Shown here: positions 25,489-59,735 of the stretch, in pieces
How positions within the stretch are numbered: the first letter of the stretch is position 1
Layout: each line of letters begins with the position of its first letter
Assembly (NCBI GenBank): GCA_020847855.1
Contig: JADLBH010000002.1
Coordinates: 62,001-126,000, forward strand
Direction of reading: 5' to 3'
From: Fimbriimonadaceae bacterium
GTDB taxonomy: Bacteria > Armatimonadota > Fimbriimonadia > Fimbriimonadales > Fimbriimonadaceae
Length of the DNA: 64,000 nucleotides
Notes under the pieces: model-generated
Seen by the model: only the letters and a program-made list of their open reading frames with translations
Database searches by the model: none
What the model was told of the DNA's origin: nothing
Made by a program: the position numbers and the translations under genes

Positions 25489-26208
25489 ATGGCATTGAAA
25501 CGAATCTTTCTCCTTGCAATCGTCGCTGTCTCTGGGCTTGCGAACGCACAGAACGTCTTAGTCTGGTCAACGGGCAACTCCGGCGGAGCGACGAGCCAGG
25601 TCGCCGCCGACCTTATGGCCTCGGGCGCATTCTCCAGCGTGACGGGAATTGACGACGATACTGGCATGACCCAGCCGTTCTTGGACTCGTTCGACCGGGT
25701 GCTCTACTTCTCGAACACAAGCAGCAACCAAGACCCGACTACGGTCGGCAACCTCCTTGGAAACTTCGCGAGTTCTGGCAAACGGCTCGTACTGGCCACC
25801 TTCTCTTGGGCCGACCAAGGCAACAACACGCTCGCTGGCTCGATTTTGAACTACTCGCCGTTCGCGGTCAGCGGTTCAAGCCTGTACACCGACGTCACGA
25901 TTGGCTCGACGGATGGAAGCGCGTTCTGGAACGGCGTCAATTCGATCAACGGGTACTTCCACGACAACGTCGCTCTCGCGAACGGAGCCACGTTGCACGG
26001 TTCCTGGTCGGACGGGAGCGCGCTCCTTGCGTCCAACGGGGAGGTCGTCGGCGTGAACCTGTTCCCGGACGCGAGTTGGGGACTTGTGAGCGGCGACTAC
26101 AACCAGTTGTTCGTGAACTCACTGACGGCCCCGGTGCCCGAACCGGCCACGATGGTCGCGCTCGGGGCCCTCTTGCTACCCGCGCTCCGAAGACGGCGCT
26201 CGCGCTAA
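25489..26208 (+). CDS. Exported PEP-CTERM protein
   Basis: The 239-residue protein has a signal peptide (residues 1-20, MALKRIFLLAIVAVSGLANA). A body with a flavodoxin-like/GATase-like alternating pattern follows (NVLVWSTGN, VLYFSNTSS, RLVLATFSW), and a C-terminal sorting tail begins VPEPATMVALGALLLPAL and ends in an Arg-rich cluster. PEP-CTERM tails are recognised by an exosortase and serve export to the cell surface or matrix; no exosortase is in this window. Body function is unknown. Start chosen from the GAGGA Shine-Dalgarno. Confidence 0.85.
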   Translation: MALKRIFLLAIVAVSGLANAQNVLVWSTGNSGGATSQVAADLMASGAFSSVTGIDDDTGMTQPFLDSFDRVLYFSNTSSNQDPTTVGNLLGNFASSGKRLVLATFSWADQGNNTLAGSILNYSPFAVSGSSLYTDVTIGSTDGSAFWNGVNSINGYFHDNVALANGATLHGSWSDGSALLASNGEVVGVNLFPDASWGLVSGDYNQLFVNSLTAPVPEPATMVALGALLLPALRRRRSR

Positions 26209-28028: not shown

Positions 28029-29081
28029 ATGAACCCGAAGAGAGCCTGTCTCATCACCGTCGTCACCCTTTTCGCCCTCGATGCGGCAGCCCAGATCACG
28101 CCCGGACAGGTGGACGACTTCGAGGATGGCACGGTGATGAACTGGGCCGGTGGCGACTTTCCCGTGAACATGCCGGACGGCGGCCCCAACGGTACCGGGG
28201 ACAACTTTTTGCAACTCAGCTCGGATGGTGGGCCCTTCTCGGGTGGCAAGCTCGCCGCGTACAACCTCACCCAATGGGCAGGGGACTGGGGTGGGGTAGG
28301 CGTGGAGTCGGTCAGCGGGTTCTTCCGAAACCTCGGTGCTACCGACATTCACCTTCGCCTCGTGTTGTTCGACTCCGGCATACCCCAAAGTCGCTGGACC
28401 TCGAACAGTGCCCAGATACTGGCGGTCGGCTCCGGTTGGGTGGAGCTCACGTTCTCCGTGCTCGAAGCCGACCTCACCAGGGTGCAAGGCACGGGAAGCT
28501 ACGCAGTTTTGATCGGTAATGTGGATCGTTTGATGTTTCGTCATCAATCGGGCCCGCCCGCCGCTGGCGGACAGTCCACCGTGGCAACCCTGGGGATGGA
28601 CGTGATCCGGGCGATTGGCCCGGAGACCGTCGTGCCCACCGGGTTCCAGACGGTTTTCGGCAGGTTGGACGCGGGCAACCTCGCCAGCCTGTTCAGCGAT
28701 GATGACGACTACTTGCGCCACTGCAAGTTCATCGTTCCAAACACCACGGTGCCACCGATTCAAGTCATGGTGAACGGTACGACAACGAAAACAAGCTCGA
28801 CAGGGATCGCGGCCACCCTTCGCGGCCGCATGGCGACGGTGGGGGCGTTCTCGGTCACGTTAGAACAGCGCAATGCGGTCTCGGGTGCATTCGAGGACGG
28901 AACAACGGCAGCGGTGAACACGAACGAGAGCACCGTGACCTCGAACTCCACCGGCAACCACAGCGAGAAGATCGGTTCTGGCGGGTCGCTCACTGCCCGC
29001 TATAGCCTGCGGCAGACCGGGCCGAGCGCGGTCTCACTGTTCTGCTTCAATGCGGACCAGTTCGGGTGGATTGTCCGCTAA
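28029..29081 (+). CDS. Exported CBM11-like protein with a C-terminal domain shared with another exported protein
   Basis: The 350-residue protein has a signal peptide (residues 1-21, ending in AAAQ). Residues 25-195 look like a carbohydrate-binding jelly-roll (VDDFEDGTVMNW start, then a W-E-L-T-F strand), similar in outline to CBM11/CIA30. Residues ~201-350 form a domain also found at the C-terminus of the gene at 34530: GRLDAGNLASLFSDD, YLRHCKFIVPN and YSLRQTGPSAVS. No PEP-CTERM or other sorting tail is present. GGAG about 8 nt before the ATG supports the start. Function is unknown. Confidence 0.7.
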   Translation: MNPKRACLITVVTLFALDAAAQITPGQVDDFEDGTVMNWAGGDFPVNMPDGGPNGTGDNFLQLSSDGGPFSGGKLAAYNLTQWAGDWGGVGVESVSGFFRNLGATDIHLRLVLFDSGIPQSRWTSNSAQILAVGSGWVELTFSVLEADLTRVQGTGSYAVLIGNVDRLMFRHQSGPPAAGGQSTVATLGMDVIRAIGPETVVPTGFQTVFGRLDAGNLASLFSDDDDYLRHCKFIVPNTTVPPIQVMVNGTTTKTSSTGIAATLRGRMATVGAFSVTLEQRNAVSGAFEDGTTAAVNTNESTVTSNSTGNHSEKIGSGGSLTARYSLRQTGPSAVSLFCFNADQFGWIVR

Positions 29082-29110
29082 GGCCCGCGTTGTAGGGTAG
29101 AACCCAGGGC

Positions 29111-30490
29111 ATGAAGCAACCGCTCATGCTCGCCGCCCTCCTGCTCAGTTCGTTGGGCCAAAGCCAAGGCAACCCGGAGATCGTTGCCAAGGTCATCGAG
29201 CTCGGAAAGTCGGGAAACCAGACCCGTGCCCACCTCGAGTACCTGTGCGAGCAGATCGGACACCGGTTGACCGGCTCGTCCAATCTCCAGCGCGCGTGCG
29301 ACTGGACCGCGGCTAAGTTCAAGGAGTTCGGATGTCAGAACGTCCACCTCGAGCAGTGGGGCGAGATCCCAGTCGGGTTTGACCGTGGCTCCCGCCACAC
29401 GGGGCGGATGGTGAGCCCTAAGCCGCGCAACTTTGAGTTCACGACCCGATCGTGGACTGCCGGTACGGGTGGCCTAAGATCGGGCGGAGTTTTCGAGGAG
29501 CCCACAACGGTGGAAGCGTTGGCGAAAGCCGCCCCGAAAGGGAAGTGGATGATGATGCTGCCTCGACAGGGCGATGGTCTTCCGACCAAAGAGGTTCGAG
29601 ATGCCGTCCTTGCCGGGGCGCGGGCGGCGGGGATATTGGGAACCGTCGCGGCGAGCAGAAACGAGCTCGTGATCACGAGCGGCTCTTGGGAGAACCTCGA
29701 TTTCGCGAACCTGCCCACGAACGTGGACATCACGGTTCGCAAGAGCGACTTTGAAGCAGTGACCGAGGCGATGAAGGAAGGGGCCAAGCCCGTTCTTGAG
29801 TTCAACCTGGATCAGAAGTTCGTGAAAGGACCGATCCCCGTCTACAACGTGATCGCGGAGATCCCTGGTGCGAGCAAGCCCGACGAGGTCGTGATCGTGA
29901 GCGGCCACTTGGACAGCTGGGACGGTCCCGGCTCGCAAGGCACGTGCGACAACGGAACCGGCACGATGGTCGCCCTCGAGGCCGCTCGGCTGCTCATGGC
30001 GGCGGGCGCGAAGCCGGAGCGCACGATCCGGTTCATCCTCTGGACCGGTGAGGAGCAAGGCTTGTGGGGATCGAGGAAGTATGTCGAGGCGCACACCGCG
30101 GAGCTCCCGAAGATCAGTGCCGTGATCGTGGACGACGGCGGTACGAACTACTGCGGCGGACTCGTGGGCATCGAGTCCATGAAGCCCATGCTCGAACAAG
30201 CGATCGCCCCGCTCGCCGAGGCCTTCCCCGACCTACCCATGACGATCCGCGCCCAAGAGAAAATGCCCCAGGGCGGAGGAAGCGACCATGCCTCCTTCAA
30301 CCGTGCCGGCGTCCCAGGTTTCTTCTGGAACGAGACAGGCGTAGCGGACTACACCTACATCCACCACACGCAGCACGACAAGCTGGAGGGGGCGATCAAC
30401 CGCTATCTGGTGCAGAGCAGCGTGGCCTCGGCGGTCACCGCCTACAACCTGGCTTGTGCGCCGACCATGCTTCCTCGCCAGGGCGGCTAA
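29111..30490 (+). CDS. M28 family zinc aminopeptidase/carboxypeptidase Q-like
   Basis: The 459-residue protein begins with a likely signal peptide (KQPLMLAALLLSSLGQSQG). A PA-like insert domain (about 85-230) precedes the M28 catalytic domain. Metal ligands and catalytic residues are visible: H266 in SGHLDSW, D280 in TCDNGTG, E314/E315 in WTGEEQG, D341 in VDDGG and H419/H422 in IHHTQHD. Family members release N-terminal amino acids or dipeptides outside the cell. TAGAAC (29098-29103) lies 7 nt before the ATG. Confidence 0.9.
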   Translation: MKQPLMLAALLLSSLGQSQGNPEIVAKVIELGKSGNQTRAHLEYLCEQIGHRLTGSSNLQRACDWTAAKFKEFGCQNVHLEQWGEIPVGFDRGSRHTGRMVSPKPRNFEFTTRSWTAGTGGLRSGGVFEEPTTVEALAKAAPKGKWMMMLPRQGDGLPTKEVRDAVLAGARAAGILGTVAASRNELVITSGSWENLDFANLPTNVDITVRKSDFEAVTEAMKEGAKPVLEFNLDQKFVKGPIPVYNVIAEIPGASKPDEVVIVSGHLDSWDGPGSQGTCDNGTGTMVALEAARLLMAAGAKPERTIRFILWTGEEQGLWGSRKYVEAHTAELPKISAVIVDDGGTNYCGGLVGIESMKPMLEQAIAPLAEAFPDLPMTIRAQEKMPQGGGSDHASFNRAGVPGFFWNETGVADYTYIHHTQHDKLEGAINRYLVQSSVASAVTAYNLACAPTMLPRQGG

Positions 30491-30496
30491 CACCGC

Positions 30497-31387
30497 TTGG
30501 AGCCACGCCTCCCCATCCTCCTGAACGTTCGTTCTAGGCAGGGGAGGACGTGGGCCGAGCGCGCCCGGATCGCCTTTGAGACCGCGGGCATCGGGGTCCA
30601 AGATGTCTCCCTGTTTCAGCGGGTGGAAGCCTTGGTGGACCGGGCCCGAGCCCTCGTGGCGGAAGGATCGCCTGTGATCGGGGTGGGCGGAGGGGACGGC
30701 ACTCTGGGCGCGGCCTGCGGGGCCTTCGTGGGGAGCGAGTCGGCCATGATGCCGCTTCCTGCTGGTACCGGCAATTCCTTCGCCCGAGATCTGGGTATAC
30801 CGCGCGACCTTGATGAGGCGGTGAGGGCGGTCTCCCAAGGGGAGGTCCGCAAAGTGGACGTGGGCCGTGCGCAGGGAAGGTACTTCCTCAATGTTGCGAC
30901 GATCGGCCTCACGACCCTGATCGCCAAGAGCCTCGACCCCAGGCTCAAGCGCGCATCGGGGAACCTCGCCTACGCGGTGGCGATCCTCCGAGCGTTGCGC
31001 AAGTCTCGGCCTTTCGAACTTGCGATCACAACCGAGGAGGAGCAGGTCTCGATTACCGCCCTGCAAGCCGTGGTCGGCAACGGCAGGATCCATGGCGGCC
31101 CCTTTCCCCTCTCTCCCACTGCCGGGTTGGGACTGGGACGACTCAGCGCGTACGCCGTCCGCGCAGACAAAGCGTCGGATCTGTTGCGGTACTCCTTGAT
31201 GCTCTCCTTCGGCGGGCACGTCGCGTTGCGCGAGGTCTGGTGGGCGGAACCCGAGAGCTGCACGATGGTCGCACGGCCTCCCACCGAGATGACCGTGGAC
31301 GGCGAAGTGCTGCCCCCGGGACCGCTCCAGGCGGTGTGCCTACCCGGTGCGCTCCGGGTCGTCGCGCCCAAGCTCGCAGACCTTTGA
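30497..31387 (+). CDS. Diacylglycerol kinase-like lipid kinase (YegS/LCB5 family)
   Basis: The 296-residue protein has the DAGK catalytic domain: NVRSRQGRTW at the start, VIGVGGGDGTLGAACGAF (nucleotide loop GGGDGT), LPAGTGNSFARDLGIP, and the C-terminal beta-sandwich ending with FTVDG-type TVDGEVLPPGP. These enzymes phosphorylate diacylglycerol or related lipids. The start is TTG 30497, 6 nt after the M28 stop; no other codon nearby keeps the N-terminal strand. Confidence 0.88.
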   Translation: MEPRLPILLNVRSRQGRTWAERARIAFETAGIGVQDVSLFQRVEALVDRARALVAEGSPVIGVGGGDGTLGAACGAFVGSESAMMPLPAGTGNSFARDLGIPRDLDEAVRAVSQGEVRKVDVGRAQGRYFLNVATIGLTTLIAKSLDPRLKRASGNLAYAVAILRALRKSRPFELAITTEEEQVSITALQAVVGNGRIHGGPFPLSPTAGLGLGRLSAYAVRADKASDLLRYSLMLSFGGHVALREVWWAEPESCTMVARPPTEMTVDGEVLPPGPLQAVCLPGALRVVAPKLADL

Positions 31388-31460
31388 GGTGGGCTGGCCC
31401 AGGATCGCTCCGACCATGCGAGAATCCTCCCCGAATTGGGCCTGAGGCCGACCGCGGCCG

Positions 31461-32351
31461 ATGCCAATGATGGAAGCAATCGGTCAAGCCGCCATGCAGT
31501 TCCCACGCCTCCCAAGTCTCGAAGGAAAAGTCGCCCTGGTCACCGGGGCCTCGCGAGGTACGGGCAAGGGAATCGCCCTGGCCCTGGGCGCGGCAGGAGC
31601 CACCGTTTATGTGACGGGAAGGAGCATTCGCGGCGGCCAGCGCACCGAGGGCCTGCCCGGCACCGTGGAAATGACCGCCGAGGAGGTCACGAACCACGGT
31701 GGCTATGGGATCGCGGTGAAGTGCGACCACACCGTCCTGGGCGACGTCGAGCGTCTCTTCGAGAAGATCACGAAGAGCCACGACCGCTTGGACCTCCTCG
31801 TGAACAATGTTTGGGGCGGCTTCGAGCAGTTCGAGCCGAACGAGTTTTCGGCGCCCTTCTGGGAGCTGCCGTTCCGCCACTGGCACGGGATGTTCACGGT
31901 GGGCCTGCGCTCGCAACTGCTCGCGTCGCACTTCGCCGTTCCGCTCATGCTCAAGCGAAAGTCCGGTGTTATCGTGCACGTCACCGCCTGGGACGACTTC
32001 CACTATCTCGGCAACCTCTACTACGACGTCGCGAAAATGGCATTGAACCGAATGAGCTTTGCGATTGGGCTCGAACTGAAGGAGCACGGGATCGCGAGCC
32101 TCGCGCTCGCGCCCGGCCAGGTGCGCACGGAGCGGGTCATGGCGATGTATGCGACGACCGAGCGCGACTATCACAAGGAGCCGTCGTTGCGCGGGTCGGA
32201 ATCCACCGCCTATGCAGGCATCGCGGTAGCGCACCTAGCCGCAGACAACAAGGTCCTGGAGAAGACGAGCGGGATCTACCGAGTCGCCCAACTCGCCGAA
32301 GAGTACGGGTTCGAGGATATCGGCTCGGTCGTTGGGCCGACCGCCGCTTAG
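31461..32351 (+). CDS. Short-chain dehydrogenase/reductase (DHRS1-like)
   Basis: The 296-residue SDR has the cofactor motif TGASRGTGKGIA, NNVWGG in place of NNAG, and a Y-x-x-x-K pair in YYDVAKMALNRM. The NNVWGG motif and the long loop before it resemble the DHRS1 branch. The substrate is unknown. ATG 31461 and ATG 31494 are both possible starts; the later one begins just before the first strand (LEGKVALVTG). It is followed by the TIM-barrel gene after 23 nt. Confidence 0.85.
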   Translation: MPMMEAIGQAAMQFPRLPSLEGKVALVTGASRGTGKGIALALGAAGATVYVTGRSIRGGQRTEGLPGTVEMTAEEVTNHGGYGIAVKCDHTVLGDVERLFEKITKSHDRLDLLVNNVWGGFEQFEPNEFSAPFWELPFRHWHGMFTVGLRSQLLASHFAVPLMLKRKSGVIVHVTAWDDFHYLGNLYYDVAKMALNRMSFAIGLELKEHGIASLALAPGQVRTERVMAMYATTERDYHKEPSLRGSESTAYAGIAVAHLAADNKVLEKTSGIYRVAQLAEEYGFEDIGSVVGPTAA

Positions 32352-32359
32352 ATCCGGTC

Positions 32360-32365
32360 TATCCT
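32360..32365 (+). promoter_or_regulatory. Leaderless-type -10 box (TATCCT)
   Basis: TATCCT ends 9 nt before the ATG at 32375, in the 23-bp gap after the SDR gene. There is no Shine-Dalgarno sequence. Confidence 0.45.
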
Positions 32366-32374
32366 CTGCTTGTC

Positions 32375-33124
32375 ATGCCGACCCCCGTCGCGCTCCAGCT
32401 TTGGTCTGTTCGAGAGGACTGTGCCCACGATTTCTTGGGAACCCTCACCGCCGTGGCCGAGATGGGCTATGACGGCGTCGAGTTTGCCGGGTACCACGGT
32501 GTCTCGGCGCCCGCGTTATCCAAGGCGCTCTCCGATCGAGGACTGACCGCTCCCAGCGCCCACACTGCTTGGGCGAGCCTTCAACCCGACACGATCGAGG
32601 CGACGATCCTCTTTCACAAGACTCTCGGTTGCCCGCTCTTGATCGTGCCTGGCATCGCGCCGGAGATGAGGGCTACGAAGGACGCATGCCTGGAGACGGC
32701 GGATCGGTTCACTTCCGTCATGGAGCACCTCCGAGCGGAAGGGTTGCGGTGCGGTTATCACTGCCACGCCGCGGACATGCAACCGCTCCCAACGGGCGAG
32801 CGGCCCTGGGACGTCATCGCACAGAACACTCCCGACGACTTCGTCCTCCAATACGACACCGCCAACGGCATGAGCGCAGGGGCGAGCCCGTTTCAGCCGA
32901 TCCTCGACTATCCTGGACGGACGAAGTCCCTCCACGTCAAGGAGCACTCCGCTCCCGAGGCAGGCGCGGTGATCGGGGAAGGCGAGGTGCCTTGGAGCGA
33001 CGTGCTTGCAGCCGCGAAAGACGCCGAGTGGCTCGTGGTCGAGCACGAGCAGTACGGCTCGCGAACCCCGCTCGAAGGAGCGCGGCTCTGCCTCGAGGGA
33101 CTACGAGCCCTTCAGGGCTCGTAG
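32375..33124 (+). CDS. Sugar phosphate isomerase/epimerase (AP endonuclease 2-type TIM barrel)
   Basis: The 249-residue protein matches the xylose-isomerase-like TIM barrel: LQLWSVRED at the start, MGYDGVEFAGYHGV, GYHCHAADMQPL, LQYDTANG, and SLHVKEH with a late EHEQY. The His, Asp and Glu on the strand ends are the usual metal ligands. Family members act on sugars, inositols or their phosphates; specificity cannot be called. The last 13 nt overlap the convergent carbon-nitrogen hydrolase gene. Confidence 0.85.
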   Translation: MPTPVALQLWSVREDCAHDFLGTLTAVAEMGYDGVEFAGYHGVSAPALSKALSDRGLTAPSAHTAWASLQPDTIEATILFHKTLGCPLLIVPGIAPEMRATKDACLETADRFTSVMEHLRAEGLRCGYHCHAADMQPLPTGERPWDVIAQNTPDDFVLQYDTANGMSAGASPFQPILDYPGRTKSLHVKEHSAPEAGAVIGEGEVPWSDVLAAAKDAEWLVVEHEQYGSRTPLEGARLCLEGLRALQGS

Positions 33125-33948
33125 ATTCCGGGCTGGCGGGTCGCGAAGGTGTCCGTCTCATATTCGCCAGGGATCACGACGCGAGTCTTCGACCTGGCGG
33201 CGGGAAGGTCAAGGTCCGCCCAGATCAGCCCTTCTTCTCTTTCAATGCGGGCCAACTGCTCACCGTCTGGGCCGTGGATCGCGCTCTGGCCGATGAACTC
33301 CACCCCTCCGTGCTCGCCACAGCGGTTGCACGTAGCGAGGAACACGCGATTCTCCGAGGCTCGCGTGGGGACATAGTGCAAAGGGGTTCGATCGGCACCG
33401 TTGGGCCAGTTCGTCGGTAGGGCGATCAACTCAGCGCCACGGAGCGCAAGGGTGCGGCACACCTCAGGGATTCTCAGGTCGAAGCAGATCGCGACCCCAA
33501 TCCGGCCCTGCGAGGTCTCGAAGACGGGCAGGTCCCGGCCTGGTTTTGCGAACCGGTCGAACCCGAGCCAGGGCAAGTGGGTCTTGGTATAGCAGCGGGG
33601 CGCCCGGCCAGGTTCGAGCACGGCGGCGGCATTGTAGAGTCCATCTCGATCATGTCCCGCGAAGCCCACGATCGTGACGATCCCGGCCCGCCCGGCCTCA
33701 TTTTCGAGGGCCGCGAGGTGCGTACCCAAAGACTCGAACGATCCCTTCAGCCCTCGCTCCACGCTTAGGGCCAACCCCCTGGCCTCTGCTTCGCTCCGAA
33801 CCACGTAGCCCGTCAAGAAGCACTCGGGGAGCACAAGGATCTGAACTCCGGCTTGTGCAGCCTCGCGCACCGCGCTTACTGCCCGGTCGAGATTGGCACT
33901 TGTGTCCCCTTCGGCGACCTCCAGCTGCGCACAACCGATCCTGGTCAC
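33112..33948 (-). CDS. Carbon-nitrogen hydrolase (nitrilase superfamily amidase)
   Basis: The 278-residue protein has the Glu-Lys-Cys triad: E42 in LPECFLTGY, K122 in YTKTHLPW and C155 in VAICFDLRIPE. The best match in outline is N-carbamoylputrescine or omega-amidase-like enzymes. The GTG start overlaps the accB stop by 4 nt (GTGA), so translation is coupled with accB, which is not a usual pairing. The 3' end overlaps the convergent TIM-barrel gene by 13 nt. Confidence 0.88.
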   Translation of the reverse strand: MTRIGCAQLEVAEGDTSANLDRAVSAVREAAQAGVQILVLPECFLTGYVVRSEAEARGLALSVERGLKGSFESLGTHLAALENEAGRAGIVTIVGFAGHDRDGLYNAAAVLEPGRAPRCYTKTHLPWLGFDRFAKPGRDLPVFETSQGRIGVAICFDLRIPEVCRTLALRGAELIALPTNWPNGADRTPLHYVPTRASENRVFLATCNRCGEHGGVEFIGQSAIHGPDGEQLARIEREEGLIWADLDLPAARSKTRVVIPGEYETDTFATRQPGIYEP

Positions 33949-34376
33949 GAGAGCCGGATCAAGGGATCCCCTGGGTTGACAAGCTGGCCGTCTTGGGCGA
34001 CGATCTCGGAAACCGTGCCGGAAGCCGTGCTCGTGATCTCGTTGAAGACCTTCATCGCCTCCACGATCCCGATCACGTCCCCGGCTCGGACGGTGTCACC
34101 GACCTCGACGAATGGCTTGGCCCCAGGGCTGGGGCGGGAGTAGTAGATGCCGCTCGTTGGGCTGCCGACCTCGGTGCCGGCGGTGGTGACCGGAGCCACC
34201 GCCGCTTTCGGGGCAACAGTCGAAAGTGTCATAACCGGCGGATGCTCGGGCCCGCGATCCGACCCTAGCCGGGAGTAGGCGACCTTCACGCCCTCGCACT
34301 CGATGCTCGCCGATTCCAGACCGAACTCGTCCATGAGATCGGCCAATCGAGATGCGACGGAGGCCTCAGAGTCCAT
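33945..34376 (-). CDS. accB: Biotin carboxyl carrier protein of acetyl-CoA carboxylase
   Basis: The 143-residue protein has an N-terminal helical segment (SEASVASRLADLMDEFG), an Ala/Pro/Val linker and a biotinyl domain with the attachment lysine K109 in VEAMKV. It carries carboxyl groups in fatty-acid synthesis. accC is not next to it; a nitrilase-family gene overlaps its stop instead. CATAAT lies 6 nt before the ATG, and a perfect 8-bp palindrome is directly upstream. The frame is open further 5', but that part is not conserved-looking. Confidence 0.92.
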   Translation of the reverse strand: MDSEASVASRLADLMDEFGLESASIECEGVKVAYSRLGSDRGPEHPPVMTLSTVAPKAAVAPVTTAGTEVGSPTSGIYYSRPSPGAKPFVEVGDTVRAGDVIGIVEAMKVFNEITSTASGTVSEIVAQDGQLVNPGDPLIRLS

Positions 34377-34382
34377 GTCCGC

Positions 34383-34388
34383 ATTATG
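34383..34388 (-). promoter_or_regulatory. Leaderless-type -10 box (CATAAT) of accB
   Basis: CATAAT on the minus strand ends 6 nt before the accB ATG at 34376. No Shine-Dalgarno sequence is present. Confidence 0.55.
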
Positions 34389-34390
34389 CC

Positions 34391-34408
34391 ACGGTGCTTC
34401 AGCACCGT
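34391..34408. promoter_or_regulatory. 18-bp palindrome in the accB promoter (operator candidate)
   Basis: ACGGTGCTTCAGCACCGT has 8-bp perfect arms around a 2-nt centre. It begins 2 bp upstream of the accB -10 box, so a bound protein would cover the -35 zone. It is about 80 bp upstream of the divergent exported-protein promoter. Confidence 0.45.
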
Positions 34409-34489
34409 ATATTTGCCAGGAATATGAAGAATTGCGTAAATTCTTCGCAAAGCGGGCTCGGCAAGAGTCCAAAGCCGTGCTGGAGCATG

Positions 34490-34495
34490 TACAAT
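34490..34495 (+). promoter_or_regulatory. -10 box (TACAAT) with leader and strong Shine-Dalgarno
   Basis: TACAAT implies a transcript start near 34502 and a leader of about 28 nt, with GGGAGGAGGA at 34518-34527 before the ATG. An imperfect repeat, TTGCG-N9-CGCAA (34432-34450), lies about 40 bp upstream of this box. Confidence 0.5.
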
Positions 34496-34529
34496 TCCTT
34501 CAATCCCATTCTTTGGTGGGAGGAGGACA

Positions 34530-36896
34530 ATGAAACTCAAGAGCACACTCGTGGGCTTCGCTTTGCTTGCCGTTGGCGCGAACTCGTTCGCGCAGACGAT
34601 CGAGGCGACTGCACCACCCAAGACTCCAGACGACAGCTGGATGTCCGTAAAGTGGGGACCGGACGACGGAACCCCGACGACCAAGGCGATTGCCTGGGGC
34701 TCCGCCTCGCCGCGAGACCCGATCGTCCATACACCTGGACCCACGTTCAGCCCGAACGCGCACGGGAAGATCCCCGGTGAGATCGTTCCGCTCGATCCCA
34801 ACAACCAGGCCAAGGTACACCTCGACCTCGAGTCACCGCAAACGGCCCCGCTCGTCGGCGAGTTCGAAGGGATCCCGCAGACCACGCTGACCCCTCCCGA
34901 CCCCTGCATGGCGGTGGGCCCGGACCACTACATCCTCACGGTCAACGACCGATGGGCGATCTATGACAAGTGTGGGAACCAGCTCTTCAACTCTCGCATT
35001 GGCGACTTTGTCAGCGACCCGAGCGGTTTCTACTTCGACCCGAAGGTGTTCTACGATCCGTGGCGCTTCCGCTGGGGCATGCTCTGGCACCGCGGCACGG
35101 GCAACCCGTCGAACCTCGTGACCTTCGGCACGACGTCATCCGACCCCATGGGTCAGTGGGTTTGGAAGTACTGGTCGGGCGACGGCATTTTTGGTGCCGG
35201 CACTTTCTCCGACTACTACGACTGGGGATACTCGGCCCAGGCGCTCTATGCGTCCGGCAACCAGTTCGGCGGAGCAGGCTTCCGGACCGGCATGTGGATC
35301 TTCAACCCGGCTGAGATCTATGCCGCCGGCGGCGCGACCGCGGCGGTCTACAACATCGCGACCAACGATGACGGAACCGGTGCCGACACCATCCGGAGCA
35401 CCCACATGCTGTACAGCTTCGGCGGTGGATGGGACATGGTCTGCTTCAACTCCCGCTCGGGAGGCGGCAACCGGATGTACATCCAAAAGGTCCAGGATCC
35501 GCTGAACGTGGGGGCTGGTCGCTTGAGGACGGCGAGTCACATCAACGTCGCGTCGTACTCGGTTCCGCCCGACGCAACCCACAACGGTGGCTCGCTCGAC
35601 ACCATTGACTGCCGATCCTACAACGGACAGATCATTGACGGGGTCGCCGGGCAGACGACGAGCATGACCTTGCTCACCTCGTTGAACACCGCGGACGCTG
35701 CGTTTGGCGGGCGATGCTCCTCGAAGATGATGGCCCTCGATCCGACGGCTTCGACTGTCGGCACGGACGTCAACTTCACGGACGGCGTACATCACTACTG
35801 GTTCGGTGCGCCGAGCGCAAACTACCAAGACACTGGCGTGTTCTGGTTCAGCCGCTCGATTGCCGGCGAGTTTGTGACCATGCGGTACGTCGCATGGAGC
35901 GGAGCCGGCCTGAGCGGATCTGCGCACGTCGAGGCCGGGACGGGCAACGCGTCGGGCCGATGGGGCGACTACTTCCAGGGCACCCTTGACTGGGCCGACT
36001 ACTACGCCTACGGCGGAACTGCCGGTCCTCAGAAGCACTGGGGCTATGCTGAGATCAGCGGTGCCGGCGGCTGGCGCACCAGGGTTGGCATCACCACCGC
36101 CGATGTGACAACCGCTGGCGTGATGACCGTTGCGCCTGGGACGAACATGGCCTTCACCGGCTTCGTCGGTGGGCCGTTCACCCCGGCAAATGAGGTCTAC
36201 ACGCTCGGCAACACGGGCCAGGTCGGCTATGGCTATGAGGTCTCGAGCCTCCCGTCATGGCTGAGCGCCACGAACGGTAGCGGCCAAGTGTTCGGGACGA
36301 ACGTCAACGTGTCCATCTTCCCTGATGCGACCGCGAACGGCCTTGGCTACGGCATCTACACCGACGCCTCGATCCTGTTCACCAACTGCTACAGCCTCGC
36401 CAGCACGAGCCGCTCCGCGACCCTCACGGTCAAGGCGCGGATTGTGCCGACCTCCGTCACGGTTCGGCTTGGCCGAATTGATGCGGGCAACGTGGTGAGC
36501 CTCCGAGCGGACGATGCGAACTACCTTCGGGTGTGCAAGTTCATCGTCCCCAACTCGATCGTGCCTCCGGTGAACGTCGAAGTCTCGACGACCGCCCCCG
36601 GCGCGACCGCGTCGCAGATCGTCTACGAGCAGCTGGCACGCATGTTCCACGCTGGATCGTTCAACCAGCAGCTCGAACTGTGGAACTACAACACGGGCAA
36701 CTGGGGAGCGACTACGAGCGGAGCCCTCGGAACCGTCTTCGTGAACCGAACCGTCACCGTGAACGCTGGCGCCAACAACTACATTGGCCCCGCGAACGCG
36801 ATGCTCGCTCGGTATCGCATCAGCCAGACCGGCCCTGCGGCCGTCTCGGCCTGGTGCCACGAGGTGGACTACGTGAACTGGGAGCTCACTCCCTAA
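34530..36896 (+). CDS. Large exported protein with BACON-like segment and shared C-terminal domain
   Basis: The 788-residue protein has a signal peptide (residues 1-22, ending NSFAQ). Residues ~100-530 are rich in Gly, Trp and Tyr with many short strands, including TPPDPCMAVGPDHYILTVND, and may form a beta-propeller. A segment around 550-620 (YEVSSLPSWLSATNGSG) resembles a BACON or Ig-like fold. Residues ~640-788 share GRIDAGNVVSLRADD, YLRVCKFIVPN and YRISQTGPAAVS with the exported protein at 28029. It has the strongest Shine-Dalgarno of the window and a hairpin terminator behind it, so it is probably well expressed as a single gene. Function is unknown. Confidence 0.7.
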   Translation: MKLKSTLVGFALLAVGANSFAQTIEATAPPKTPDDSWMSVKWGPDDGTPTTKAIAWGSASPRDPIVHTPGPTFSPNAHGKIPGEIVPLDPNNQAKVHLDLESPQTAPLVGEFEGIPQTTLTPPDPCMAVGPDHYILTVNDRWAIYDKCGNQLFNSRIGDFVSDPSGFYFDPKVFYDPWRFRWGMLWHRGTGNPSNLVTFGTTSSDPMGQWVWKYWSGDGIFGAGTFSDYYDWGYSAQALYASGNQFGGAGFRTGMWIFNPAEIYAAGGATAAVYNIATNDDGTGADTIRSTHMLYSFGGGWDMVCFNSRSGGGNRMYIQKVQDPLNVGAGRLRTASHINVASYSVPPDATHNGGSLDTIDCRSYNGQIIDGVAGQTTSMTLLTSLNTADAAFGGRCSSKMMALDPTASTVGTDVNFTDGVHHYWFGAPSANYQDTGVFWFSRSIAGEFVTMRYVAWSGAGLSGSAHVEAGTGNASGRWGDYFQGTLDWADYYAYGGTAGPQKHWGYAEISGAGGWRTRVGITTADVTTAGVMTVAPGTNMAFTGFVGGPFTPANEVYTLGNTGQVGYGYEVSSLPSWLSATNGSGQVFGTNVNVSIFPDATANGLGYGIYTDASILFTNCYSLASTSRSATLTVKARIVPTSVTVRLGRIDAGNVVSLRADDANYLRVCKFIVPNSIVPPVNVEVSTTAPGATASQIVYEQLARMFHAGSFNQQLELWNYNTGNWGATTSGALGTVFVNRTVTVNAGANNYIGPANAMLARYRISQTGPAAVSAWCHEVDYVNWELTP

Positions 36897-36919: not shown

Positions 36920-36954
36920 GCGGCCCGCCCTTCGGGGCGGGCCGCCTTGCTTTC
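36920..36954 (+). terminator. Strong hairpin terminator between the exported-protein gene and glgP
   Basis: GCGGCCCGCCC (36920-36930) pairs perfectly with GGGCGGGCCGC (36935-36945) around a TTCG tetraloop. CTTGCTTTC follows. It serves the plus-strand gene; the minus strand lacks a comparable T tract. Confidence 0.85.
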
Positions 36955-39532: not shown

Positions 39533-39538
39533 ATTATC
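39533..39538 (-). promoter_or_regulatory. -10 box (GATAAT) of glgP containing the upstream stop codon
   Basis: GATAAT on the minus strand ends 9 nt before the glgP ATG. Its TAA (39534-39536) is the stop codon of the GH65-like gene. Confidence 0.45.
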
Positions 39539-41198
39539 GGCTATCCGAGCCCTTCTTTGCGGGCCCGTCATGGGTCAGGACGAGTTCGACGGGCTCACCG
39601 TCCACGTACAGCGTCATGCTCAGCGACTTCCACTCAGGGGGGAAATGAGGCTTCGCTGAGACCCATGAACCTGCTTTCAGCCTTCGCTTCCAAACTGCGC
39701 CCTCAACGGGGCTCGGACCTACATGGATCCCAGCAAACCCGTACAGAACCGCCGACCAACATCCCGCTACCCCGGTCAAGAACGTGCCGTTCGCTTGTCG
39801 CGGGGTCTCGCCGAAGCTCCGGGCCGGGCCATGGGAGTAGCGGTCAATGGCTCGTCGCCAGGTGTCGAGGGCTTCTTCTGGCTTGGCATACCTAGCTTCG
39901 AGCAAAGCTTCGATTGAGAGTGACATTGCAGGGCCGTTCGCAATTGTCCGTCCCTTCTCATGTGCGAGGATCTCGCTTGCGCGGGCAAGGAGGGCCGGGT
40001 GCTCCAGTGGCCACAGCCCTAGAAGGAGGGCATGCTGCTGGAGCTTCTGATCCTGATCCCCTTCAAAATTGAGGACACGATCTCCCGACATCGGGATGTG
40101 CGGCCGATCCAGGTGGAAGAACCGCTGGGCAACAAGGTTGGTGTACGTATCGCTCGGCGTCATCGCATACTCGTCGGGGGAGAGGGTCTGCTCGACGTTT
40201 ACGGTGCTCGTGTTCACGGTCGCACGGTTGAGATAGTAGAAGCACGCGGCCCGAAGGAATCGCTTGGCGGCGTCGGCTTCGACCAGGCCCAGCCGCGAGG
40301 CGTAGTCCATCCCCCACGCCGCACTGCCCGTGACGTGGGCCGCATGAAGTCCTGGCCCGGTGCAAAGCTCCCTGCCGTCGGGACCAGTCTCCCAGGCCAC
40401 AATGATCCCGTCGCCTTTTCCCGTGTACTTTCGCTGGAACGCTGCGGAGGCGGCGGGGAAGGTGCGAATGCGGAACGCGGGGATCGCCCGCGCCCTTGCG
40501 GGGTGGGTCAGGGCGAGCGCGGGCAAAAGCCAAATGTCCGCGTCCCAGAACACGCGACCCGTGTATTTCGCACTGCTCGACCCGAAGGGCGAGAGGCCGC
40601 ACATTTCCACCGAACGGTCTCCTCCGAGTTGCCTCGCGAGGTCGTCCAACCTCGCCTGATCCTCCTTGGGCCCGACCAACTTGATCCGAGGAATCCGCAC
40701 CTGCCACGCGGGCGGATCCATGGGGCTCGTGATCCTGATTCTCGTTTTGAGGGCGTGCTGGGGCCCGTCCGTGAGCCTTGTGCTCTCGCGCTGGGTCTGC
40801 CACCCTTTCGGAAGGGCGACCTCCCAGTCCACCTGGGGCTCTCGGTTCGAGACGACTTTCAGCTCGAAAGCGAACGTCCCCGCTTCACGGCATTCGAGAT
40901 CGAACCGATAGCCCTTGCCAGTGCCGGAGTACCGAAGGCCGTTATGGCTCCGGACGAGTTGGCCGCGGGGAAGCGGGGCACCGTTGACCTTTGCCTCCAG
41001 GCTGATTCGGGCGGGAACCGCAGAGAGACCGCTAGGCCCCTCCGCCACCCATGCGCTCGCATTCGGTCCAGGAAGCCCGTTGGGCTGAAGCTCCACGCTG
41101 GCGGTGAGGGAAGTCAGCAGGGCCCGAGGCTGAGCGGGTTGGGGTGGGGACGCCTGGGTGCAACCCGTCGCGACCGCCAAGAGCACGAGCCCGCGCAT
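39534..41198 (-). CDS. GH65-like glycoside hydrolase/phosphorylase lipoprotein
   Basis: The 554-residue protein begins MRGLVLLAVATGC, a short lipoprotein signal with lipobox Cys13. A beta-sandwich N-terminal domain (about 20-190) precedes an alpha/alpha barrel. FWDADIWLLPALALTHPARARAIPAFR matches the GH65 block, and AWETGPDG carries a likely catalytic acid near E270. GH65 enzymes act on alpha-linked disaccharides (maltose, trehalose, kojibiose) by phosphorolysis or hydrolysis. A lipid anchor suggests action outside the cytoplasm, so hydrolysis is more likely than phosphorolysis. The start at 41198 is set by the lipobox. Confidence 0.8.
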   Translation of the reverse strand: MRGLVLLAVATGCTQASPPQPAQPRALLTSLTASVELQPNGLPGPNASAWVAEGPSGLSAVPARISLEAKVNGAPLPRGQLVRSHNGLRYSGTGKGYRFDLECREAGTFAFELKVVSNREPQVDWEVALPKGWQTQRESTRLTDGPQHALKTRIRITSPMDPPAWQVRIPRIKLVGPKEDQARLDDLARQLGGDRSVEMCGLSPFGSSSAKYTGRVFWDADIWLLPALALTHPARARAIPAFRIRTFPAASAAFQRKYTGKGDGIIVAWETGPDGRELCTGPGLHAAHVTGSAAWGMDYASRLGLVEADAAKRFLRAACFYYLNRATVNTSTVNVEQTLSPDEYAMTPSDTYTNLVAQRFFHLDRPHIPMSGDRVLNFEGDQDQKLQQHALLLGLWPLEHPALLARASEILAHEKGRTIANGPAMSLSIEALLEARYAKPEEALDTWRRAIDRYSHGPARSFGETPRQANGTFLTGVAGCWSAVLYGFAGIHVGPSPVEGAVWKRRLKAGSWVSAKPHFPPEWKSLSMTLYVDGEPVELVLTHDGPAKKGSDSR

Positions 41199-41204
41199 AG
41201 ACTC

Positions 41205-41210
41205 AATGTA
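41205..41210 (-). promoter_or_regulatory. Leaderless-type -10 box (TACATT) of the GH65-like gene
   Basis: TACATT on the minus strand ends 6 nt before the ATG at 41198. No Shine-Dalgarno sequence is present. Confidence 0.4.
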
Positions 41211-41282
41211 TCCGGTCCTGGGATGTGGAAAAAGCACGAGCGCGTTCCAAGGGGTCCGTCCGTCCATTCTCTTTAGCATCCC

Positions 41283-44200
41283 ATGCGGCTCAAGCGCATA
41301 CGACTGTACGGCTTCAAGACGTTTGCAGAGCGGACGGACATCTCCTTGGACGGCGATATCGTCGCGATCGTTGGCCCGAACGGTTGCGGCAAGTCGAACA
41401 TCGTGGACGCCTTGGTTTGGGGGCTGGGTGAGTCGAACATGAGGTCGGTGCGAGCCCAGACCGGCAAGGAAGTCGTCTTCGCGGGATCGAGCCACCGGAA
41501 GCCGTTGGGATATGCAGAAGTCTCTGTGAGCTTCGACAACGAGGACGGCATGCTTCCTCTAGACTCGGCGGAGGTCACCACGACGCGCAGGGTCACGAGG
41601 GAGGGAGAGAATTCGTACCAGATCAACCGCCGGAACTGCCGACTCCGGGATGTCACCGAGCTCTTGGCGGACACCGGGCTCAGCCGGACCGGATACGCGA
41701 TCGTGTCGCAGTCCGAGATAGATCAGGCCCTCTCGGCCTCGACACTCCAACGACGGCATTGGATAGACGAGGCCGCAGGAGTGCAGAGGTACCGCTTGCG
41801 GCGGATCGAGACGATGCGCAGGCTGGCCGCCGCCGCCGAACACCTCGCCCGAGTGGACGACGTGATCGTCGAGCTCGAGATCCAACGCGAACCCCTCGAA
41901 TCCGAGGCGAAGGTGGCCCTCGAATACCGCGAGCTGGCGGGAAGGCTGCGAGGGATCGAGACCGGTCTCCTCGCTCACGAGCTTGTGGACGCCACCAACG
42001 CCCTGGCCGAGGCAACGGCACGCGCCGAGTCCATTTCCAAGGCGCTGGCGAGCGAGAAGGAGATCTGCCAGACCCACCTGCGGGAGGAGCAGGAAGCCCT
42101 CTCCGAGGCGGAAACGCTCGAGGCCGAGATCAGTGAGGCACGGGCCAGAGCGGCCGAGTGCCAGCGTCGAACCGATCTTGCCCGGACCGCGATCGAAGTG
42201 GCCCGAGCCCGCCTTGCGAGCCTGACCGACCTCGAGGCCGCTCTGGAAGTGGAGGGCAACGCTGGGTTGGAACGGCTGGCTCAGGCCGAGGCCGACCTGG
42301 CAGGCGCCCTTTCCGTATCCGAGGCGGAGGCCCGATCGCTGGCGGAAGCCCGTGCCGAAGCTGCGGGCACGAGGGAGGAAGAGACCGCAGTGAAGTCGAG
42401 GCTCGCCGAAGCGGAGGCGCGACTCGCCGCGGACAAGGAGCTCGATGTTCTACGCCGGACCTTCGAGATCGAGCAGGCACACCGCGAGCGACGGGCACTG
42501 GAGCTGGAAAGGGAACTCGCGGGCGCCAAGAAGGCGGTGATCGATTTGGCCGGGGCGCTGGCAGCCGCCGAGCTGGACGCAGGCCAGGCCACAGAGCGGT
42601 ACGCGACGGCGAAGCAAGGACTGGAGGACGCCCTCCTCAGCGCGACGGAAGGTGCCAAATCCTTGGAGGCGGCGATGCAATCGCACCGGGAGTTGCTCGC
42701 CCGGATTGCGACGCTGGAAGGAAAGCGGGCGGGCCTTCAAGCAAGCCTCGCAGCGCACGACGGCCTCTCGGCGGGCTCGATGGCCGTGATGGAGGCCTCG
42801 CGGAACGGGGAGATCCAAGGAGAGTTCGTCCCGATCGGCGAGGCGCTCACCGTGGACCCGGCCTACGCCATTGCGATGGATGCGGCACTAGGGGCCGCCG
42901 CGAACGACCTGATCGTCAAGGACGAGGCCGTCGCGAAGTCGGCGATCTCCTTCTTGCGTGAGAACCGCGCGGGTCGCGCAACGTTCCAGCCCTTGACGCT
43001 CGTTCAACCCAGGGGGGCCTCCGGCGCAGAACGGCTCAAGGGTCAACCAGGTGTGATCGGAGTGGCGAGCCGCCTCGTCGAATGTCCGGACCGATTCAAG
43101 CCGGTGATCGAGGGCGTCTTGGGCCGGACGGTCGTGGTCGAGACGCTCGATGCGGGCTTCCGCCTGGTAGGGAAGCCAGGATGGTCCAAGGCGGTGACCT
43201 TGGAAGGTGAGATCGTCTTTGCGGGCGGTGCGGTCACTGGGGGTCGGGCGTCGCGCCAGGGCAACGGCATGGTTGAACGCGCGGCTGCCCTGGCGAGCGC
43301 AGAACTCGAGCTCGAAGTGCTCACACAGGAGCTTGGCCAGGCTGAGTCGGCGATTGCCGAGCTCCAGACCTCCGGTCAGTCGCGCCAAACTGAGCGCGAA
43401 GAGGCGGACACGGCGCTGGCCGCACTGGCGACGGCGAGAGACGAGGCTCTAGCCTTCCGCAACGCGATTTTGTCCGAGCACAGGGAGACGGAGCGGGCGT
43501 GTGCTCGGCTCGAAACGGAGCGGGTCGCCTTGGCGACCCCGCTCGAAGCGCCCGCCGAGGCGGACTTGGCCGCCACGGAGGCCGCCCGGGAGGCCGCGCT
43601 TCGCGAGTGGGCCGAGTTGAGTGCGCGGGCCTCGGGCCAAACCGCCGCCCTCGATGCCGCGGAGGCGCGGGCGGGGGCCGCGGCCCAAAGGGTCGAAGAC
43701 CTCAGGAGGCGACTCGAAGCGGTGGCTGAAGCGATCGCCTCGGGCAAGGCAAGGCGAGAGAACGTGGGTCCGGAGACCGAGACCCTCAACCGCCAGCTAG
43801 CCGATTCGGAGGCCGAGCAAGAGAAGTGGCAGCGTGAACTGGATCTGGAGAGCGAGGAGGTCGAGAAGCGCTCCGAGGCGAGGGCACAGGCCCAGGCTCG
43901 GGCCCGAGAGGCGGGCCAGGCCGCTTCCGCCTCCCGTTCCGCCTTGACCGCCGCCGAGAGCGAGGCGCACAAGCTGGAGATCGCCATGACCCGTCAGGAT
44001 TTGAAGCGCGCGGCTACCGCGGCCCGCCTCTTGGAGGAATATGGTCTCGATGAGGCATCTGCACGAAACCTCGCCAACCAGGGCAGGCCTGAGTCGGACG
44101 CTGCCAACCTCGTCGCGAGCTTACGAAAGCAAATCAAGGGCATGGGTGAAGTGAACCTAGGTTCCATTGATGCCTTCGAGCGCGTCACGTCCCGGCTCCA

Positions 44201-54692: not shown

Positions 54693-54806
54693 CCTCAATT
54701 TGGGCCTTTCGTCCCGGACGTCAAGTAGGGTTGTGCTCCAGTCCCAGGATTCTCCGGCCCCGCCAGCCCGGTGCCTGGTATCTTATTGAGCCCCCCCGGT
54801 ATCTCT

Positions 54807-58898: not shown

Positions 58899-59687
58899 CT
58901 ACTTGCGACGGCGGCGTGCCGCGAGAGCGGCAAGGCCCGCACCGAGCGCGATCATCGTGGCCGGTTCTGGGACGGCGGCGAGGCCGTCGTAAGCCTGTCC
59001 AACGTTCGCCACGGTCGTTCGGGCGAAGGAGTTGCTCAGATCGTACTGATAGAATTCGCCCGACCAATCCAGCGAGTAGACGCTGTTGTTCGAGCCGACG
59101 TAGGCCATACCGTTGTTGTTGACAAAGCCGGAGCCGCCGTTCGCCAGTGTCTGGGCGCCGGTGGTTCGGTCAATGTAGTGCAGCGATCCAGGGCCTGCGA
59201 GCATGCCCAGGATGTTTCCGGTGGAGCCGTCGTAGGTCAAGGCGTCGAGGTTGATCCCAGGGTCACCGATGAATGTGCCTGCCCCCGTGGCCATGTTGAT
59301 CTCATAGAACCCTGTAGAGATCGTGGATGCGCTCGCGAACATCTTTCCGGTTCGAGGATCCCAGACCAGGCCGAAGAGATCGGTCTGCCCGGTGGAGCCC
59401 ACGAGCGTCGCCGCACCGGTAGTCAGGTTCACAGTGAACAGGTCGCTCACCGCACCGACCCCGTTGCCCCATCCGCCGATGGCGTACATGGTTCCGGTGC
59501 TGGCGTTGTAGGCCAGGTCGCCAAACTCGTAGCTTACGCCCATCGCGCCAATCGCACTGACGTTGCCGTTGGTGGTGTCAATCGTGGACAGCGTATCGTC
59601 CGACTCGCGAACCGTATAGAGGAGCTCGGCGGATGCCAACTGTGTGGCAAGCCCAGCGAGGATGATCAAAGCAGATTTCGTTCTCAT
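58899..59687 (-). CDS. Exported PEP-CTERM protein with beta-propeller-like repeats, antisense between rpoB and rpoC
   Basis: The 262-residue protein has a signal peptide (MRTKSALIILAGLATQLASA). The body holds about five repeats of the type LYTVRESDDTLSTIDTTNG, with Y-x-I/V-D/N-x-x-T-G-A turns, as in propellers of the NHL/DUF4394 kind. A PEP-CTERM tail beginning VPEPATMIALGAGLAAL is followed by Arg/Lys. ATG 59687 has GGAG 8 nt upstream; TTG 59699 and ATG 59693 are alternatives. It lies on the opposite strand between rpoB and rpoC. Confidence 0.85.
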   Translation of the reverse strand: MRTKSALIILAGLATQLASAELLYTVRESDDTLSTIDTTNGNVSAIGAMGVSYEFGDLAYNASTGTMYAIGGWGNGVGAVSDLFTVNLTTGAATLVGSTGQTDLFGLVWDPRTGKMFASASTISTGFYEINMATGAGTFIGDPGINLDALTYDGSTGNILGMLAGPGSLHYIDRTTGAQTLANGGSGFVNNNGMAYVGSNNSVYSLDWSGEFYQYDLSNSFARTTVANVGQAYDGLAAVPEPATMIALGAGLAALAARRRRK

Positions 59688-59735
59688 TACCATCTCCAAG
59701 ACGTCAGGCGGGGAGTTCCCGCACTTGACCCGTAC

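Follow-up and report, generated by a model that had tools for sequence, protein, structure and literature searches.

Several C-terminal sorting tags are known in bacteria, LPXTG, PEP-CTERM and the C-terminal domain (CTD) of type IX secretion (T9SS) among them. The PEP-CTERM tag has about 25 residues, which comprise a PEP motif, a membrane helix and a basic tail. PEP-CTERM proteins are transported to the cell exterior and have been tied to the retention of EPS at the cell surface (PMC12188702). T9SS CTDs are of ~50–100 residues and are read by SprA/Sov and PorV (PMC11969387).

The domain described here is found at the C-termini of two proteins encoded in a 64,000-nt stretch of DNA from a Fimbriimonadaceae bacterium, termed the window, and of many further proteins of its own genome and of relatives. 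It resembles the PEP-CTERM/exosortase system (PF07589, TIGR02595, PF09721) in being C-terminal on diverse Sec-exported proteins with many copies per genome, and in occupying the same slot on homologues of the same cargos. Unlike the PEP-CTERM tag, it is a predicted folded beta-sandwich of ~148 residues, and it lacks a membrane helix at its C-terminus; the hallmark PEP motif, membrane helix and basic tail are not found at the C-termini of the domain proteins, and tag and domain co-occur within genomes. With the T9SS CTD it shares a folded character and a strictly terminal place on Sec-exported proteins, including peptidases, but it is larger. Thus the combination of a Sec signal peptide and a strictly C-terminal folded domain that characterizes T9SS cargo is present. 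However, SprA (TIGR04189) is over cut-off in none of 31 genomes, i.e., the window's own and 30 relatives, where only short matches of ~95 residues or less are seen. Since SprA is the defining part of T9SS, membership in that system is ruled out. The NCBIfam matches of 19 domains also include no T9SS C-terminal tail model.

Two window proteins with a common C-terminal domain

The first gene (28029..29081, + strand) encodes a protein of 350 aa that consists of a Sec signal peptide, MNPKRACLITVVTLFALDAAA (28029..28091), a CBM11-like N-terminal domain (28092..28628) and copy 1 of the C-terminal domain, residues 202–350 (28632..29078). The second gene (34530..36896, + strand) encodes 788 aa. These begin with a Sec signal peptide, MKLKSTLVGFALLAVGANSFAQ (34530..34595), which like the first was read from the translated sequence, and end with copy 2 of the domain, residues 639–788 (36444..36893). 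A GC-rich, terminator-like hairpin follows the second gene (36920..36945, + strand); it is a consensus match only, of a type no commoner than in shuffled sequences.

A BLASTP alignment of the two proteins matches residues 201–347 of the first with 638–784 of the second, with 61 of 149 positions identical (41%), 4 gaps and an E value of 2e-29. All remaining local alignments are below 17 bits. This bears out the common C-terminal domain that a preliminary description of the window had proposed, and the motifs quoted there are present in both copies. The N-terminal parts were held to be unrelated, and indeed the last ~148 residues are the one region shared. Neither protein matched a PEP-CTERM model, in agreement with the earlier remark that both lack such a tail.

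The N-terminal part of the first protein was correctly likened to CBM11: it is modeled with a pLDDT of ~75–90, and its best Foldseek match is 6r31 (E 4.7e-6). The C-terminal half of this full-length AlphaFold model is poor because the alignment contained few rows for the domain; for the domain itself, a separate model made of it alone was used. For the part that precedes the domain in the second protein, Pfam and NCBIfam gave no match within the limits applied, and from its sequence only this part appears to be propeller/BACON-like.

Other window genes include an M28 peptidase directly 3′ of the first domain gene (29111–30490, + strand), which has a signal-peptide-like N-terminus and no C-terminal domain. 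Two genes encode PEP-CTERM proteins, at 25489–26208 (+ strand) and 58902–59699 (− strand), the latter also with a weak DUF4394 match. A protein with a partial match to glycoside hydrolase 65 (E 9.7e-12) is encoded at 39537–41495 (− strand), and rpoB and rpoC are located further along, at 54771 and 59951.

Distribution and C-terminal place of the domain family

A search of the window's own genome (2.53 Mb, 97% complete) with the first copy returned 33 places with E values of no more than 1. A profile built from 19 full domains (A1) found 38 places in this genome and up to 64 in relatives; such a search had been proposed in the preliminary description, and with it the confinement of the domain to two proteins is ruled out. 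The domain is present in 24 of the 31 genomes. Its copy number is very uneven, with 64, 41, 40, 37 and 36 copies in five genera and none in seven genomes. In a survey of the phylum, the domain reaches an E value of 1e-5 or lower in 50 of 201 genomes, only five of which lie outside the order of the window's bacterium; copy numbers in this survey run up to 19 per genome, where 19 stands for at least 19. Named records with the domain, from a closer sub-alignment scan with a single motif pattern, are MAGs, all of them Armatimonadota and mostly Fimbriimonadaceae.

Pfam and NCBIfam have no model for the domain, and nothing was found there beyond a sub-threshold match to PF14741 (GH114_assoc), which Pfam names an N-terminal domain associated with GH114. 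The window copy scores 13.5 bits against a gathering cut-off of 22, and 3 of 19 domains show the match, with a best E of 0.0025. A match of 23 bits in genome G010 coincides with a clear family member, and a few relatives are over cut-off along part of the profile. PF14741 is a faint relative, and aside from it no known domain with another role was matched. A sequence search of the PDB gave chance-level matches only, and the domain was unmatched in plasmids. The literature on "choice-of-anchor", and on PEP-CTERM in Armatimonadetes/Fimbriimonas, yielded nothing on the domain or on sorting in the phylum.

Among 130 proteins with the stop codon in view, the domain ends 0–8 residues before the stop in 129, the sole exception being a profile match that ends early, and all carry one domain each. 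Strict signal-peptide rules, which are home-made and not those of SignalP, are satisfied by 109 of 123 domain proteins; the others have mostly hydrophobic N-termini without charge or come from frameshifted genes. Domain genes L073 (G000:C27) and L076 (G000:C2:47200-48900) of the window's genome have the N-part in another frame and represent frameshifted copies or assembly errors. Approximately 49 more distant members are nearly all terminal as well, with one clear exception, L046, where ~58 more residues lie behind the domain; these are dockerin-type by eye and have no Pfam dockerin call. To the question raised at the outset, whether the domain is always C-terminal and always on proteins with signal peptides, the answer is nearly always on both counts.

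Cargo, exchange with known tags and predicted fold

The N-terminal parts ahead of the domain form 43 unrelated clusters in 120 proteins, 21 of them in the window's genome alone. Cargos include VPS10/BNR propellers, subtilases, FG-GAP, GSDH and GDSL lipase, and some are "choice-of-anchor B" proteins of NCBIfam (E 8.8e-108).

The same cargos are also found with other C-terminal ends. The N-part of the first window protein has an ortholog in genome G026 (L171) that bears the domain, and six homologues in other genera, of which four have PEP-CTERM, one has dockerin type I and one has no tag. The four PEP-CTERM tags come directly after "LGxDNIxAVPEP". The dockerin, on L187, is called by Pfam (PF00404, E 4.1e-7); it is likewise a C-terminal module on a homologue of the same cargo, but its calcium-loop sequence is unrelated and it is not a beta-sandwich. 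The untagged homologue, L188, is from a genome that is nevertheless rich in the domain. In most genomes, choice-of-anchor B proteins end in the domain or a divergent version of it; one (L192) has a PEP-CTERM end, with TIGR02595 over cut-off, and three (L193, L194, L201) have tails judged dockerin-like by eye. Two neighboring genes of G010 (at ~2249 and ~2251 kb) encode proteins that agree in 68.5% of 197 residues, after which one continues into PEP-CTERM and the other into the domain. Further N-families with a swap between PEP-CTERM and domain are L223/L164 with L234/L099, L232 and L246/L092, and L236/L084. Thus homologues of at least five N-families have PEP-CTERM or dockerin in the slot of the domain. 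A weak link of the minus-strand PEP-CTERM protein of the window to L075/L118 was not counted as a swap.

Exosortase (PF09721) is over cut-off in the window's genome and all 30 relatives regardless of domain copy number, and PEP-CTERM is found in all 31 genomes, with 28 matches in the window's own. The single exosortase of the latter is located at G000:C4:22964. The domain route therefore runs beside PEP-CTERM, and a replacement for a lost PEP-CTERM system is ruled out.

The AlphaFold model of the domain is nearly all beta (pLDDT 94.4, pTM 0.88), and by Foldseek and VIA-align it groups with CBM-type beta-sandwiches. VIA-align Z is 11.7 for the CBM of mannanase 1wky, 11.1 for CBM4-2 and ~9.5–10 for CBM61, CBM16 and CBM22, with 118–137 residues aligned; the top row is a baseplate protein of phage phi812 (Z 12.9). 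The domain is similar to beta-sandwich CBMs (CBM4, 16, 22, 61 and others) in this predicted fold, but sequence identity to them is ~5–15%, and it is strictly C-terminal and single-copy. It should be noted that a predicted CBM-type fold would not by itself show a function.

The fold does raise the prospect of an ordinary carbohydrate-binding accessory domain, directed at foreign polysaccharides or food particles and with no part in sorting, and a few hydrolase-like cargos, e.g., the GDSL lipase and the subtilases, would suit it. However, glycoside hydrolase families are missing from the 25 most frequent Pfam families of 72 domain proteins, and in 130 proteins the domain is never internal, N-terminal or doubled. 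Together with the alternation with sorting tags, this makes such a role unlikely. A more specific version, a substrate-targeting module of glycoside hydrolases, is unsupported by the same cargo list.

Conserved residues are spread over the domain: G11 is invariant and G16 nearly so, and D25, N38, P43, G72, G131, P132, W138, D143 and W147 are strongly conserved. R122 and R124 also count among the conserved residues. Cysteines at model columns 32 and 139 are both present in 62 domains, both absent in 53 and alone in none (Fisher p 4.6e-34, uncorrected for kinship). Because the two occur together or not at all, the pattern points to a putative Cys32–Cys139 disulfide in about half of the copies. 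The end of the domain often reads W-x-x-x-P, with Trp at −5 in 62 of 115 and Pro last in 57 of 115.

A conserved end, and a strict C-terminal place in which the protein stops only a few residues past the last strand, are also what a signal for outer-membrane translocation could display. Here an export machine would recognize the domain and perhaps cleave it afterwards, as with the T9SS CTD but with another translocon. The T9SS-like cargos (subtilases and VPS10/BNR propellers) and the highly uneven copy numbers between genera are consistent with this. Against it are the absence of SprA noted above, the lack of any translocon candidate among the findings and a fold of the ligand-binding module type, and a translocation signal is considered a doubtful explanation.

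Copying of the module and proposed role

In the window's genome, four contigs break off within the start of a near-identical domain, and another four open within its second half (C4, C5, C8, C11, C14, C22, C24 and C39 have such ends). The broken ends are as expected if at least four near-identical domain copies broke the assembly, and the true copy number of this genome is thereby blurred by assembly collapse. The DNA shared at these ends sets in with the first codons of the domain; at three right-hand ends it continues past the stop codon and takes in a GC-rich hairpin.

Near-identical modules are also seen in two other genomes. G007, a genome in a single contig, has three genes (at 920, 1029 and 2489 kb) whose domains are 95–97% identical, with unrelated DNA on both sides. 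Bin_61_3 has three genes with 92–98% identical domains and unrelated flanks, two of which also share the downstream hairpin. In the modules of both genomes, the identical stretch opens ~15 bases ahead of the domain and tails off at the stop codon. Thus the domain module is transferred as one piece, whether by copying or by gene conversion. Such borders would also result from gene conversion between homologous domains, so that transposition is not needed.

Most domain copies are old and diverged, with a mean nucleotide identity of ~0.65. The nearest relative of a domain has the same N-part in 52 of 99 cases, and a different N-part in the same genome in 22 of 99, so the domain is mostly inherited with its cargo and sometimes swapped. 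The near-identical modules in unrelated flanks, and the 22 domains nearest to a different N-family, could also be read as a selfish or neutral 3′-end cassette that copies into gene ends and has little function itself. Such a cassette is most improbable, in that old diverged copies have retained the paired cysteines, G11, G16 and their position at the C-terminus, and that the 52 domains nearest to the same N-family argue for inheritance with the cargo in most cases.

The domain family is thus large, undescribed and strictly C-terminal on exported proteins, where it alternates with known sorting tags. The suggestion made at the outset, that the domain could serve surface attachment, secretion or binding, gains support from the C-terminal place, the export signals and the PEP-CTERM and dockerin swaps. 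A role in surface sorting or retention is probable, and the favored reading, held with some reserve, is that exported proteins are sorted or retained by way of this C-terminal module, which would correspond in function to the PEP-CTERM tag. Since PEP-CTERM proteins have been tied to holding EPS at the surface (PMC12188702), a similar role would be reasonable for the domain that is swapped in.

As a sorting or retention module, the domain may function as follows. Sec would carry the protein across the inner membrane, in keeping with the signal peptides seen, and the domain would fold outside the cytoplasm, where the perfect cysteine covariation suggests a disulfide. A shared surface component may then recognize the folded domain, such that very different cargos stay at the surface or within the matrix; this step is suggested by the tag swapping and by the strictly C-terminal position. 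Recognition might most likely consist of the binding of a surface or matrix glycan, as the fold is that of carbohydrate-binding modules, and this is the weakest step of the scheme. From the DNA evidence, the module spreads and is homogenized between genes as a 3′-end unit. Some observations weigh against a sorting role: the CBM-type beta-sandwich is common, and an accessory domain of some other function, if C-terminal, might alternate with tags as well; L046 has residues after the domain, and L188 is tagless in a domain-rich genome.

A wider proposal, put forward tentatively and thought rather unlikely, is that the domain serves as the recognition signal of an undescribed system by which Fimbriimonadales sort proteins or export them across the outer membrane. 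Such a system would have a receptor or translocon of its own, operate beside exosortase and take over cargo from it gene by gene through 3′ cassette copying.

Close paralogues with swapped tags amount to a natural experiment on proteins that change their sorting route. If the domain is a sorting or retention module, the surface proteome of these bacteria would be predictable from it, and the domain would be a concrete bait for finding its partner.
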